Positions 40,094 through 45,166 of a DNA stretch of 64,000 nucleotides are shown one piece after another. This DNA is from Pseudochrobactrum kiredjianiae (lineage in GTDB: Bacteria; Pseudomonadota; Alphaproteobacteria; Rhizobiales; Rhizobiaceae). The stretch lies in the NCBI RefSeq assembly GCF_030362795.1, contig NZ_JAUCBM010000001.1, positions 930,001-994,000 on the forward strand. Reading direction: 5' to 3'. The translations under genes were made by a program, and so were the position numbers. The notes under the pieces were generated by a model. The model saw only the letters and a program-made list of their open reading frames with translations, made no database searches and was not told the origin of the DNA. How positions within the stretch are numbered: position 1 is the first letter of the stretch; each line of letters starts with the position of its first letter.

Positions 40094-41908
40094 TCAGAAT
40101 ACGGATGCGCCCTGATCCGCATGACCGGCAATATGCCGGAAGGCGGAGAACAATTCGCGCCCCATACCAAATTGATTATGGGTAAGGTCAGGAGTTTGAA
40201 CGCTGCGGGATTGTAGCTCTGCGTCACTCATCAAAACAGACAATGTACCTTGCGTTGCATCTACGCGGATGATGTCACCTTCCTGAATTCTAGCAATCAT
40301 GCCATTGTCCAGCGCTTCCGGCGTGACATGAATGGCAGACGGCACTTTACCTGAGGCGCCGGAGAGGCGGCCATCGGTCACGAGAGCCACACGCTGTCCG
40401 CGATCCTGCAGAATGCCAAGCACAGTCATCAGCTTGTGCAGCTCCGGCATGCCATTGGCTTTCGGCCCCTGATAGCGGACAACGGCAATGAAATCGCCTT
40501 CGAGTTTACCTGCCTTAAAAGCATCCTGCATTTCTGCCTGATCGTGGAAGATTTTTGCCGGTGCTTCAATCACATGGCGATCTGGCTTGACAGCCGATAC
40601 TTTGATGATCGCACTGCCGATATTGCCGCTCAGCACTTTGATACCGCCGTCAGGCTGGAAAGGTGCTTCAGCTTTTGCCAGAACTTTGGCATCTGCGCTT
40701 AACGCAGGCGCAGGGGTGCGGGCAATTGTACCATCTGCATTGAGCGCCGGTTCAATGGTATAATCGCGTAAGGTTTCACCCCAGACAGTACGCACATCTT
40801 CATGGAGCAGTCCGGCATCCAGCAATTCGCGGATCAGATAGCCCATGCCGCCTGCGGCGTGGAAATGGTTCACATCGGCCAGACCATTCGGATAAACGCG
40901 GGCAAGCAGCGGCACAGTTGCCGAAATATCGGAGATGTCCTGCCATGTCAGTTTGATGCCTGCCGCCGCAGCCATGGCGATAAGGTGGATCGTGTGATTG
41001 GTCGAGCCGCCGGTGGCATTCAGGCCGACAATACCGTTAACAAAAGAACGCTCATCCAGCATCGCGCCGACCGGCGTGTAATTATTGCCGCAGGCCGTAA
41101 TTTCCAGAGCGCGTTTGGCTGCCTCTTTAGTCATGGCATCACGCAAAGGCGTGTTCGGGTTGATGAAAGATGAACCCGGTATATGCAGCCCCATAATCTC
41201 CATCAGCATCTGATTGGAATTGGCGGTGCCGTAGAAGGTGCAGGTGCCGGGGCCATGATAGGATTTGGACTCGGATTCCAAGAGTTCGTCACGGCCGACT
41301 TTACCTTCGGCATAAAGCTGACGGATGCGGGCTTTCTCATCATTTGGCAGGCCGGAGGTCATCGGACCAGCCGGAATGAAAATCGCAGGCAAATGACCGA
41401 AAGTGAGCGCGCCGATTACCAGACCCGGCACAATTTTATCGCACACACCGAGATAGACTGCGGCATCAAACATATCATGAGACAGGCCGACAGCGGTGGC
41501 CATGGCAATAACATCGCGGGAGAATAGCGACAGCTCCATACCGGCAAAGCCTTGGGTAACGCCGTCACACATCGCTGGTACGCCGCCTGCAACCTGTGCA
41601 ACGCCACCTGCCTCACGCGCTGCCTGCTTGATCAGATGGGGAAAGGTTTCAAATGGCTGATGAGCTGACAACATATCATTATAGGCAGTGATAATGCCGA
41701 TATTGAGCAATTGGTCGCCGGCAAGACCTGCTTTGTCGGACGGGCCGCAGGCGGCGAAACCATGAGCAAGATTGGCACAGCCCAGCGCTGAGCGCATTGG
41801 CTTGCGGCTGGCTGCTGCATTGATCCGTGCCAGATAGGCTTCGCGGGTCGGACGCGAACGCTCGATAATCCGGTTGGTAATGGCCTGCAGGGTGTGGTTC
41901 ACGGTCAT
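40094..41908 (-). CDS. edd: 6-phosphogluconate dehydratase
   Basis: This 604-residue iron-sulfur dehydratase converts 6-phosphogluconate to KDPG, the first Entner-Doudoroff-specific step. I take the ATG at 41908 (MTVNHTLQ...), with GGAG upstream, over the frame start at 41929. [28 protein letters not shown] and [13 protein letters not shown] supply the conserved Cys residues. A C-terminal [21 protein letters not shown] completes the IlvD/Edd pattern. A CG-centred palindrome lies 43 bp upstream and resembles one before zwf. No eda gene is in the window. Confidence 0.96.
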
Positions 41909-41950
41909 CTCAGTCTCCCATGGCTGCAAATGCAGCGCATATCACTTGCC

Positions 41951-41966: not shown

Positions 41967-42107
41967 ATACGGAAAAATAGTATAACGAAAGAGTGGAGTG
42001 CAGCTGATGCGTCTATAGAACGCAGAGCTTATGAAGCCGGATAAAATACTGTTCTGCCTTGGTGTTTTATAACAGAGCCAAGGCAGAAAATGCGTACTGA
42101 AATTGTA

Positions 42108-42178
42108 GCGCATCCCGAAAAGTGTGAAGCGGTTTTCGGAATAAGATGCGCGTAAAAACAAAGAAATAGAGCGGTTTC
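42108..42178. repeat. Dispersed intergenic palindrome, family A
   Basis: GCGCATCCCGAAAAGTGTGA, AGCGGTTTTCGGAATAAGAT and GCGCG give nested stems GCGCAT/ATGCGC and CCGAAAA/TTTTCGG, then AAATAGAGCGGTTT. It lies in the pgl-edd spacer beside further palindromes (GTGTGCC/GGCACAC at about 42202-42221). Confidence 0.8.
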
Positions 42179-42245
42179 AATGATTCAGTATTAGAGCGCC
42201 GTGTGCCAGACTTGGCACACAAAGGTCGCTCTAACATTTTAAAAT

Positions 42246-42291
42246 CAGAGCATAATTCCTTAAACTGATCCAAGTTTAAGGAATTATGCTC
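42246..42291 (-). terminator. Long perfect hairpin downstream of pgl (palindrome family C)
   Basis: AGAGCATAATTCCTTAAACT pairs over 20 bp with its complement across a 6-base loop. It starts 15 bases after the pgl stop on the minus strand and is followed there by GATTTTAAAAT. It probably separates pgl from edd transcription. Confidence 0.7.
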
Positions 42292-42305
42292 TAACTGGAA
42301 CCGCT

Positions 42306-43031
42306 CTATGGTGCCCAGTAAAGCTGTACCGGATGTTTTGCATGGGCGAAAATGGCGCGAACCGGCATTAGATTGATGTCTTCATCGTTGAAATCGCTGG
42401 CCAGAGCTTCTTCAAGCACAGCCAGTTTTTTCTCTCCTTCAATATGGAGGATCAGCAGGTCAGCATTAGCAAGAACTGGCAAAGTGAGCGTCAGGCGCGG
42501 TTCACCGGCTCCTTCAGCCTGCATTGGCACAACAACGGCACGGGTTTGCGGGTCAAGTGCCTGATCCAGTCTGCTGCCGCCACGGAAAAATGATGCCGTA
42601 TGCCCGTCATTGCCCATGCCGAGCACAACCACATCAAAAGGCTTTGGCAGGGCATCAATGCGATTGGCGGCCGTAACCGCGGCAACGCTTGCGGTTTGCG
42701 CAGGGCCATACAGACTCACAAATTGCGCGCCGGATGCTTTGTTTTGCAGCAGATGATCGCGTGCCAGCTTTTCGTTGGAACGCTCATTATCCGGCGCTAC
42801 AAAACGTTCATCGACGAGAGTGATCGTAACCTGTTTCCATGTCACATCCTGCATGGAAAGCGCCTCAAACAATTGTACCGGCGTTGTACCGCCGGATACA
42901 GCAAGTACGGCATGTCCTTTGGCCGTGACTGCTTTATTCAGTTGATCCGCGATTGTTCCGGCTAATTGCAGCACCAAAGCGGATGGCTCTGCAAAATCAT
43001 GCCTTTCAATATTGGTTATGTCAGTCTCCAT
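42306..43031 (-). CDS. pgl: 6-phosphogluconolactonase
   Basis: This is a 241-residue DevB-type lactonase that opens 6-phosphogluconolactone from the Zwf reaction. VLAVSGGTTPVQLFEAL and TLVDERFVAPDNERSNE are the sugar-phosphate binding blocks, and VVLGMGNDGHTASFF is the active-site motif. The ATG at 43031 has AGGAAC upstream. The order zwf-pgl-edd on one strand is the usual alphaproteobacterial cluster. Here about 310 bp with a dyad array separate zwf from pgl, and about 400 bp of palindromes separate pgl from edd. Confidence 0.95.
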   Translation of the reverse strand: METDITNIERHDFAEPSALVLQLAGTIADQLNKAVTAKGHAVLAVSGGTTPVQLFEALSMQDVTWKQVTITLVDERFVAPDNERSNEKLARDHLLQNKASGAQFVSLYGPAQTASVAAVTAANRIDALPKPFDVVVLGMGNDGHTASFFRGGSRLDQALDPQTRAVVVPMQAEGAGEPRLTLTLPVLANADLLILHIEGEKKLAVLEEALASDFNDEDINLMPVRAIFAHAKHPVQLYWAP

Positions 43032-43174
43032 CAATGTTCCTGCGCTTGAACGCCGGTTGAGAGCGTGCTGCGCAGGTATTTTGTATCTTTATACAGAATA
43101 CCATATCAGATGGGTATTCTTGCTATGCCTTTTGAGAGGGCACACCTTTGTTTTGTTTAGGGCGATGATGTTCT

Positions 43175-43358
43175 GTCTCATCAGAGACTATCGTGCCCCG
43201 TCTCGTAAGAGACAAAGTGTATACGATGTCTCGTTAGTGACTATCGTGCCCCCGTCTCGTAAGAGACAAAGTGTACACGATGTCTCGTCAGAGACTATCG
43301 TGCCCCCGTCTCGTAAGAGACAAAGTGTACACGATGTCTCGTCAGAGACTATCGTGCC
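43175..43358. repeat. Tandem array of GTCTC-N4-GAGAC dyads overlapping the 3' end of zwf
   Basis: The pattern CTATCGTGCC recurs at 43188, 43241, 43295 and 43349 (periods 53, 54, 54). Seven dyads of the form GTCTC-N4-GAGAC occur at 43175, 43200, 43228 (one mismatch), 43254, 43282, 43308 and 43336. They alternate between a GTCA-type and a GTAA-type loop. Units 2 and 3 also contain GTGTACAC. The last dyad includes the zwf stop codon. Confidence 0.95.
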
Positions 43359-44817
43359 AAGTGCGGCCATCACGCTCGATCAGGGCAATTGAGCCGGAAG
43401 GGCCCCATGTGCCGGATGTATAGCCCTGAACTTTCTGTTCATTGCTTTCCCAGCCCTCAAGGATCGGATCAACCCAGCGCCATGCGGCTTCCACTTCGTC
43501 GCGGCGCATAAACAGGGTCTGGTTACCGCGCACAACATCCATAATCAGACGCTCATAGGCATCAGGATTACGCTCGTCAAATGAGGCGGCAAAGCTCATA
43601 TCCAGCGGAATTTGGCGCAGACGCATACCACCCGGACCCGGATCTTTAATCATGATCCATTGCTTCACACCTTCATCCGGCTGCAAGCGAATGACCAGCT
43701 GATTGGCTGTGATGTGACCGGCGCTGCTCTCAAAAATCGAATGGGGAATGGGTTTGAAGGTCACCACAATTTCTGAAACGCGCTCAGCCAGTCTTTTGCC
43801 GGTACGTAAATAAAACGGTACATTCGCCCAGCGCCAATTGCCGATTTCGGCTTTGAGCGCCACGAAAGTCTCTGTGTTGCTGGTGCTGCTTCCGAGATCA
43901 TCGGCATAGGATTTTACCGGCCCGCCCGCAGAAGCACCAGCGCGATATTGGCCGCGCACGGTATTTTCTTGTACATTCTCTGCGGTAATCGGCACGAGCG
44001 AACGTAGGACTTTGACCTTCTCATCATGGACAGCATCGGCTTCCAGCGATGCGGGAGCTTCCATAGCCACAAGGCAGAGCAATTGCAGCATATGGTTCTG
44101 CACCATATCGCGCAGTGCGCCAGCCGTGTCGTAATAGCCTGCACGACCTTCAAGACCGACAGATTCCGCAACCGTAATCTGCACATGATCAATATGGGCG
44201 GAGTTCCACAGCGGCTCATAAAGCGCATTGGCAAAGCGCAGTGCCATCAGGTTCTGCACGGTCTCTTTGCCGAGATAATGATCAATACGGAAAATCTGAT
44301 CTTCGCGGAAAACACTGCCAATGGTGTCGTTGAGAATTTGTGCGGAAGCGAGATCGCGGCCGATCGGTTTTTCAACGACAATGCGGGTCTGGTCGGTAAT
44401 CAGATCATTGCTTTTCAGCTGTTTCGCAATATCGCCAAACAGGCTCGGGCTGACAGCCAGATAGAAGGCACGAATATCTGCAGGCTTGTTTTTAATCAGC
44501 TTTTTAAGCTCAGCCCAACCCTGATCGGACTTGGCATCGACGGCCACATAGGAGATGCGCTGTAAAAACTCTTCGATTTGCTCTTCGTCAATCTCGTCTT
44601 TTTTGACGTGTTCATGAATCGCATTGCGGGCAAAGGTTTTATAATCCTCAACGCTCATTTCACTGCGCGAAGCACCTATAATGCGGGTTGGTTCGCTGAA
44701 CTGTCCGGCACGCTGACGCTGGTAAAGGGCAGGGATCAGTTTGCGTTCGGCAAGGTCGCCCGAGCCGCCGAAAACGATGCAGTCAAAGGGCTCTACCGGA
44801 ATTGTCTGGCTGGTCAT
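43342..44817 (-). CDS. zwf: Glucose-6-phosphate 1-dehydrogenase
   Basis: This 491-residue enzyme oxidises glucose-6-phosphate and feeds the Entner-Doudoroff and pentose phosphate routes. The N-terminal nucleotide loop is VFGGSGDLAERKLIPALY. The substrate motif is FRIDHYLGKETVQN, and the conserved EKPIGRDL is present. The length equals E. coli Zwf. The last codons (WHDSL and the TGA) lie inside the first unit of the tandem dyad array. A perfect CG-centred palindrome is 154 bp upstream of the start. Confidence 0.96.
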   Translation of the reverse strand: MTSQTIPVEPFDCIVFGGSGDLAERKLIPALYQRQRAGQFSEPTRIIGASRSEMSVEDYKTFARNAIHEHVKKDEIDEEQIEEFLQRISYVAVDAKSDQGWAELKKLIKNKPADIRAFYLAVSPSLFGDIAKQLKSNDLITDQTRIVVEKPIGRDLASAQILNDTIGSVFREDQIFRIDHYLGKETVQNLMALRFANALYEPLWNSAHIDHVQITVAESVGLEGRAGYYDTAGALRDMVQNHMLQLLCLVAMEAPASLEADAVHDEKVKVLRSLVPITAENVQENTVRGQYRAGASAGGPVKSYADDLGSSTSNTETFVALKAEIGNWRWANVPFYLRTGKRLAERVSEIVVTFKPIPHSIFESSAGHITANQLVIRLQPDEGVKQWIMIKDPGPGGMRLRQIPLDMSFAASFDERNPDAYERLIMDVVRGNQTLFMRRDEVEAAWRWVDPILEGWESNEQKVQGYTSGTWGPSGSIALIERDGRTWHDSL

Positions 44818-44970
44818 GAACCTGTCTCTTTATTCGCTTGTGTCTGGACGCCTACGAGGGCGCCGTCAGGATATGGAGAGAAAGTGGTGGGATTGGGTCG
44901 GGTCGCGGTTTTCAACGAAGCAGTGATTTGTATTATAATCTAGCGAAATATCACAGTTGACAATAGCGGT

Positions 44971-44990
44971 TTTTTAAATCGATTTAAAAA
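44971..44990. promoter_or_regulatory. Operator-like perfect palindrome upstream of zwf
   Basis: TTTTTAAATC is followed by its exact complement GATTTAAAAA. The CG-centred, 20-bp design is typical of LacI-family operators, and the edd promoter region has a close relative. The surrounding zwf-SDR spacer (44818-45166) holds no gene that I can see. Confidence 0.6.
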
Positions 44991-45166
44991 TCATGTAGAA
45001 TACTGCTGTGTGGTGCGAGGCGTAAACATATCTGTGAGCAGGCTCAAGATTCCCTTCATCGTCGAAATGCTTTATGCATGGGAGTAACTGATTTGCATAG
45101 CAGCGTCAGGGGAACTGGAAGCCGGTTCTAAGTCTGAAGCTGCTTGATGAAGGCTTGGAGAGAATT

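Follow-up and report, generated by a model that had tools for sequence, protein, structure and literature searches.

The end of zwf, the glucose-6-phosphate dehydrogenase gene, is repeated in tandem behind the gene in Pseudochrobactrum kiredjianiae, where it forms an array of seven small dyads at positions 43174-43358 (minus strand) of the 64,000-nucleotide stretch of DNA analysed here (the window). This array is probably a slippage-driven duplication of the gene 3' end, which is tolerated and whose hairpins in the mRNA would be incidental. Its sequence is restricted to one locus and its copy number varies between the species of the genus. Moreover, arrays of other sequences recur at gene ends of the sister species, and in the genome under study tandem repeats are biased towards stop codons.

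Anatomy and history of the zwf array

The zwf ORF (43342..44817, minus strand) encodes 491 residues ending in RTWHDSL* and contains the Pfam domains G6PD_N (PF00479) and G6PD_C (PF02781). At its 3' end there are six exact copies of the dyad GTCTC-N4-GAGAC, with starts at 43175, 43200, 43254, 43282, 43308 and 43336, where dinucleotide shuffles of the window lead one to expect 0.01 and none out of 100 reached six or more. A seventh, imperfect dyad is found at 43228 (GTCTCGTTAGTGAC); with it the dyads span 43175-43349, and the distances between successive starts are 25, 28, 26, 28, 26 and 28 bp. Tandem Repeats Finder describes a 54-bp unit present in 3.4 copies with 94% matches (43174-43358; two further rows of its output are the same array) and gives no other tandem repeat in the window at score 50. 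The array of 54-bp units with seven dyads that was noticed in a preliminary description is thus real.

The 54-bp copies all lie on the minus strand. Copy a (43305..43358) holds the zwf end, HDSL and the stop codon TGA, and is identical to copy b (43251..43304). Copy c (43197..43250) shows three differences from both and contains the imperfect dyad, and a half copy d (43174..43196) carries the last dyad (43175-43188). The 55-mers starting in register at 43196, 43250 and 43304 show this too: the pair closest to zwf has one and the same sequence, from which the third departs at three places. The array includes the last 17 nt of zwf and, as already proposed, the gene-proximal dyad (GTCTC-TGAC-GAGAC, 43336..43349, minus strand) contains the stop codon, TGA (43342-43344) being located in its 4-nt loop; flanks included, this dyad is predicted to fold into a hairpin of 12 pairs and a single bulge, at -16.5 kcal/mol. 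The second dyad type (GTCTC-TTAC-GAGAC, 43308..43321, minus strand) is extended on the zwf-sense strand by CUUU/GGGG, with C-G and G-U pairs, and has a predicted energy of -11.0 kcal/mol. Made of head-to-tail copies of a unit longer than 10 bp, and differing in copy number between related genomes (six species), the array resembles VNTRs or bacterial minisatellites in these two respects.

Two ORFs follow zwf, which from the operon order we take to be pgl (6-phosphogluconolactonase, 42306..43031, minus strand, with its ATG at 43031 and listed from a TTG at 43034) and edd (6-phosphogluconate dehydratase, 40094..41929, minus strand). The array had been thought to fill the zwf-pgl spacer. This is correct for the zwf-proximal part of these 310 nt; the pgl-proximal ~95 nt are a different, conserved element. 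Separately, the pgl-edd spacer (42092-42303) is crowded with AGAGC...GCTCT palindromes, and Rfam gives there a sub-threshold match to the Brucella sRNA BASRCI408 (34.8 bits vs a gathering threshold of 398), which looks like a dispersed Rhizobiales palindrome.

The zwf site was compared within the genus using one genome per species, G000 being the genome under study; in G002, zwf is broken off. There are seven dyads in G000, four in G006, three in G005, two in G003 (one of them intact, the first zwf hairpin being broken), one in G004, and a half-dyad remnant in G001. Because intact or decayed dyads stand at the site in all five comparable sister genomes, the array is an old one that has both gained and lost units. 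An earlier suggestion of recent expansion therefore holds for the two gene-proximal 54-bp copies, recently made since they are identical, and not for the array as a whole. Between G004 and G006, identity is 99% over the first 600 nt of pgl and 95% over zwf, yet the former has one dyad and the latter four; as the array copies of G006 have diverged from one another, dyad loss in G004 would be the simpler story. This comparison of copy number between species, of the kind that the preliminary description had proposed for strains, agrees with the proposed derivation of the array from the zwf 3' end: the first unit is the coding end of the gene and copy number is variable among species.

G000 has CAC as the fourth-last zwf codon (His), where the five other genomes with a complete zwf have CAT; CAC also occurs in the downstream copies, in G000 as well as in G005. 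A downstream copy may thus have replaced the zwf end in G000, although a point mutation could also explain a difference of a single base.

Repeated gene ends elsewhere in the genome and in the genus

An unbiased repeat search in 864 kb of G000 (19% of the genome), with gene calls from a simple home-made hexamer script, revealed 25 tandem repeats, of which 12 overlap a stop codon and none a start codon, 4 being coding and 9 non-coding. When the 21 repeats that are not wholly coding were placed randomly, assuming that all non-coding DNA is equally free to change, 2.63 stop overlaps were expected and none of 1000 placements reached the 12 observed; for start codons, 2.65 overlaps were expected and none was observed (P 0.053). 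At a looser threshold the numbers were 17 coding, 15 stop, 1 start and 11 non-coding, with 3.42 stop overlaps expected. The period is 26-30 bp in nine of the 12 stop-overlapping repeats (54, 22 and 37 bp in the others) and in two of the nine non-coding repeats, and the unit of the 15 stop arrays extends into the gene by a median of 18 nt (range 3-36), counted from the last base of the stop codon. In a 464-kb sample, two tandem repeats besides the one at zwf begin in the last codons of a gene and repeat its stop codon.

Repeated gene ends were also counted directly, as stop-containing 22-nt segments matching at 18 or more of 22 positions 15-80 nt further on. They were found at 13 of 693 G000 gene ends, whereas a control site 200 nt within the same genes gave 0 of 693 and one placed 40 nt beyond the stop gave 8 of 693, some of which may be the same arrays. 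The corresponding counts are 3/327 in G004 (controls 0 and 2) and 0/345 in the genome G021 (controls 2 and 1). Samples of 400 kb, about a tenth of the genome each, contained one stop and one start overlap in G005 (P 0.32; two stop overlaps at the looser threshold, P 0.07) and two stop overlaps in G004 (P 0.18; three at the looser threshold, P 0.10), and 400 kb each of Ochrobactrum teleogrylli and G021 contained no stop overlap at the strict threshold. With a still looser count, for offsets of 22-32 nt, G005 had five gene-by-offset matches vs none in each of two in-gene controls, and G004 two vs none. The stop-codon excess is established in G000 only and is weak in the two sister species sampled. 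Stop-spanning hairpins were considered as a genome-wide class and rejected, the excess being small: for 695 G000 genes and stems of at least 9, the two stop bins contain six and the fourteen bins from -150 to -20 contain four.

A Pfam scan of ten of the 15 array genes of the looser threshold gave zwf, an IalB-family protein, a low-molecular-weight (LMW) phosphotyrosine phosphatase (PTP), a LigT-like phosphoesterase, EIIA-man, a PfkB kinase, an ABC ATPase, a succinyl-CoA-ligase-like protein (sucD by our own assignment), YitT and DUF1150. These other gene-end arrays carry the sequence of their own gene and are unrelated in sequence to the zwf array. The gene next to the 15 stop arrays is co-directional in seven cases and convergent in eight, two of the latter in one shared spacer, the ratio of co-directional to convergent neighbours in the sample overall being 456 to 224; this is not the pattern expected of an operon-specific device. 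At L113:15370-15518, the facing ends of two convergent genes both overlap repeats within one 109-nt spacer. Two other repeats may be mentioned here. At L108:18137-18351, a 59-bp tandem repeat (AGCATTTCCCGCAAAAGTGC...) of 3.5 copies resembles a dispersed palindrome. At L164:9694-9798 in G004, a gene with a Gly-Gly-Met-rich tail, presumably GroEL-like, has its stop codon within a 9-bp dyad, ATGGATTTC-TAA-GAAATCCAT, which recurs 75 nt further on with its sequence altered yet complementary.

For zwf and six further loci, picked from G000, orthologues were compared between species. A stop-containing 20-mer is repeated (P<=0.01 vs 300 shuffles of the downstream 130 nt) in 35 of the 44 species-by-locus cases, and in 28 of the 37 outside G000, at offsets of 25-31 bp or about double; the number of copies changes from species to species. 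Outside G000, the repeat is present at all ialB-like (6/6), EIIA (5/5) and ABC ATPase (4/4) loci, in 5/6 cases for the LMW-PTP, 4/5 for sucD, 2/6 for pfkB and 2/5 for zwf, where no repeat passes the 20-mer shuffle test in G001, G003 and G004.

A claim that arrays in general become homogenised with the end of their gene was narrowed to the LMW-PTP and pfkB loci, the two that show a general contrast between own and foreign ends. LMW-PTP copies match their own gene end at 15-20 of 20 positions in six of seven species, G004 being without repeat, and between-species means are 6.5-13, a value lowered by the shift of the stop by one codon in G004 and G002. For pfkB, with three positive species, the corresponding ranges are 15-20 and 13.7-14.7. 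Altogether the within-species match exceeds the between-species mean in 18 of the 35 positive cases, the within value being favoured as a maximum over windows. For zwf the two values are 20 vs 17.4 in G000, 17 vs 18.6 in G005 and 18 vs 18.2 in G006.

Array hairpins and the pgl leader

Folding of the minus-strand, zwf-sense transcript, another analysis called for at the outset, predicts hairpins well in G000 and more weakly in the sister species. In G000 the array with the leader folds with a z-score of -7.4 vs shuffles, and the array part with -6.5 on the sense and -5.4 on the antisense strand; sense values of the sister array parts go from +1.4 (G001) to -3.7 (G006), and repeated palindromes by themselves raise such z-scores. 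The far better folding than shuffles in G000, the predicted stop hairpin of -16.5 kcal/mol and one fully compensated dyad in G006 (ATCTC/GAGAT) would fit a functional 3' array, in which tandem stem-loops over the zwf stop would set the Zwf:Pgl ratio by stopping 3'-5' exonucleases or by halting transcription towards pgl. The clustering of bacterial stem-loops at CDS 3' ends, reported in the available part of PMC1590033, would fit as well.

We consider such a function rather unlikely. The array is reduced to half a dyad in G001 and to one dyad in G004, its first hairpin is broken in G003, and the modest sister z-scores together with the inflation by palindromic repeats weaken the folding argument. 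Among distinct zwf dyads, pairs are broken more often than covarying, with one compensatory and one G-U change against eight broken cells (two of these from leader sequence scored as a dyad). Totals of this covariation table for EIIA, livF and pfkB were left out, since rows past the arrays (next gene, pgl leader) are not copies. Moreover, compared with equal-length windows at ordinary gene ends, the 15 stop arrays mostly have dyads of no greater strength (P 0.014-0.855). With one of the 15 below 0.05 against this null, the idea that every stuttered unit has a specially strong dyad was dropped. On the zwf strand between 42900 and 43600, no terminator-like site (G+C-rich stem and U run) was found, and a scan of 42000-45000 with Rfam covariance models gave no match to the array at E<=1.

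What is conserved in the spacer is the pgl-side leader (43039-43119), alignable in all six Pseudochrobactrum species. Outside the array, at 43082..43119 (minus strand), it contains a GAATACC...GGTATTC hairpin (43096-43119) and the dyad TGTAT-AAAG-ATACA (43082-43095), the first of these dyad patterns occurring once in the genome. At 43039..43076 (minus strand), a predicted CCTGCGC...GCGCAGG hairpin adjoins the presumed pgl ribosome-binding site; the outer stem is predicted for each of the six species, G006 having one A-C mismatch in it, and the inner stem is not predicted for G003. Five of the 20 leader pairs are changed on both sides, and six have at least one broken or gapped cell.

An attenuator or decay barrier for the Zwf:Pgl ratio, as first suggested, was thus rejected as the lead reading: the array is reduced or decayed in the sisters and the pgl leader is kept, and similar arrays stand at unrelated genes, with a convergent gene next in 8 of the 15 cases. 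If the spacer controls pgl at all, the pgl-proximal leader is the place to look. There is no sign that the array hairpins are kept for pgl regulation, and at most they may provide incidental 3' structure for the zwf mRNA.

Origin of the array and comparison with known repeats

In a slippage-driven duplication, a ~27-bp stretch comprising the last zwf codons and the stop, with a small dyad already inside, would have been duplicated behind the gene, and a diverged pair of such ~27-bp monomers would have given rise to the 54-bp unit whose copies multiplied in this species. Slippage, perhaps aided by the hairpins, or unequal recombination between copies would then add and remove units, and copies may occasionally replace the zwf end itself. 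Such stutters of 25-31 bp on the ends of unrelated genes would represent a recurrent process in Pseudochrobactrum.

Neither the ~27-bp period nor the greater abundance of repeats at stop codons than elsewhere in non-coding DNA is accounted for by slippage. According to a bolder reading, a fixed gene-end piece of ~27 nt, stop included, would be copied just behind unrelated genes, either as a ribosome-protected mRNA fragment returned to DNA or at a site of termination-linked breakage, and the arrays would then rewrite the last codons. A ribosome footprint at a stop codon has about the size of the 25-31-nt unit. An origin from a ribosome fragment is conceivable because this unit size and the median reach of 18 nt about match a ribosome at the stop codon; as a whole, we give this bolder reading very little chance.

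Insertion of a REP-like or MITE-like mobile palindrome at the zwf end, with later multiplication, is highly improbable. GTAG-type REPs often provide the stop codon of the flanking ORF, some REPs are tandemly reiterated and the CGTC type predominates in alphaproteobacteria, as stated in the portion of PMC3733652 at hand. Going by this portion, the REP palindromes of the GTAG and CGTC super-families are like the array in being small gene-near hairpins, sometimes tandem and sometimes supplying the stop; unlike them, the zwf array is not dispersed and shows no sign of mobility. By eye, it has no GTAG tag, and plus-strand CGTC is present but overlaps stem or loop bases.

The array has one match in its own genome, the array locus itself, and three single exact dyads lie elsewhere in these 4.46 Mb, vs six matches for a backward control pattern. 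Instead of the unit at hundreds of loci that would characterise a general dispersed repeat, the sequence is restricted to a single locus. Among 61 genomes, a 184-bp array query matched five, all of the same genus, with no match in the 54 other genera sampled, and the pattern of two neighbouring dyads was present in 2 of 394 family genomes, both Pseudochrobactrum. Ten records of a plasmid collection match, all to query positions 1-100, the zwf-coding part. The nearest Zwf among the matches listed is that of Pseudochrobactrum saccharolyticum (L033, 94% identical). Together with a first unit that is zwf's own coding end, and with other arrays that carry their own gene's sequence, the single locus largely refutes a dispersed element.

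In six Ochrobactrum/Brucella zwf loci inspected by eye (L022-L027), no zwf dyads of the array kind were seen, and the long spacers there contain other palindromes; which repeats the zwf-pgl spacer takes up seems to depend on the genus. For Brucella pituitosa and B. tritici (L024, L027), inspection by eye also shows palindromic sequence of another kind, beginning directly at the zwf stop.

A binding-site array for a DNA-binding protein, a further role first suggested for the seven near-identical and regularly spaced dyads, is scarcely credible, as the alternating 26/28-bp distances (mean ~27 bp, ~2.6 helical turns) are out of helical phase, the array sits at a gene 3' end and persists as a mere remnant in one sister, and the other arrays differ in sequence.

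Hairpin-bearing VNTRs are already in print, and the Wolbachia VNTRs appear to be the nearest published case found. In the accessible text of PMC3287509, VNTR-105 and VNTR-141 are intergenic tandem repeats with two (105) or one (141) palindromic hairpins per period, their copy number varies between close relatives, and hairpin-triggered slippage with concerted evolution is proposed. To the extent of that text, the zwf array is similar in its hairpin-bearing tandem unit and in a copy number variable among relatives. It differs in that its ~27-bp monomers start from the gene end, whereas the Wolbachia periods of 105/141 bp lie between genes, and in that similar arrays with other sequences are found here on other stop codons.

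Heptamer repeats are described for Xanthomonas and Nostoc, and in Xanthomonas they are tandem, near and over stop codons (PMC4692102, available section); as presented there, they are one G-rich 7-nt motif dispersed over the genome and, unlike the arrays reported here, are not built from the end of each gene. The stem-loops at CDS 3' ends stand directly after stop codons, as here, tandem gene-end copies not being described in the available part of PMC1590033. The TAACTGA repeats were set aside as not similar, since they are mostly upstream of start codons according to the excerpt of PMC4679880. Among the open-access matches listed, as judged from titles and the starts of abstracts, there was neither a gene-end repeat of this sort nor a named zwf-pgl element.

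The MIRU of mycobacteria are tandem repeats of operon spacers that overlap the upstream stop codon in variable number and form one dispersed family. Here, by contrast, each array is made of its own gene's sequence: the zwf unit has one match in the genome, and in place of the same unit in several operon spacers, the other arrays are unrelated to it in sequence.

Tandem repeats in spacers are usually taken as random marks; in G000, they hit stop codons far above random placement. This leads to a testable question, namely whether a mutational ruler acts at gene ends or selection favours a repeated 3' structure. It also calls for caution, as such arrays are not each to be read as a regulatory element of their own gene. 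A regulatory switch is not proven for the zwf array, which is better seen as a minor example of genome plasticity.
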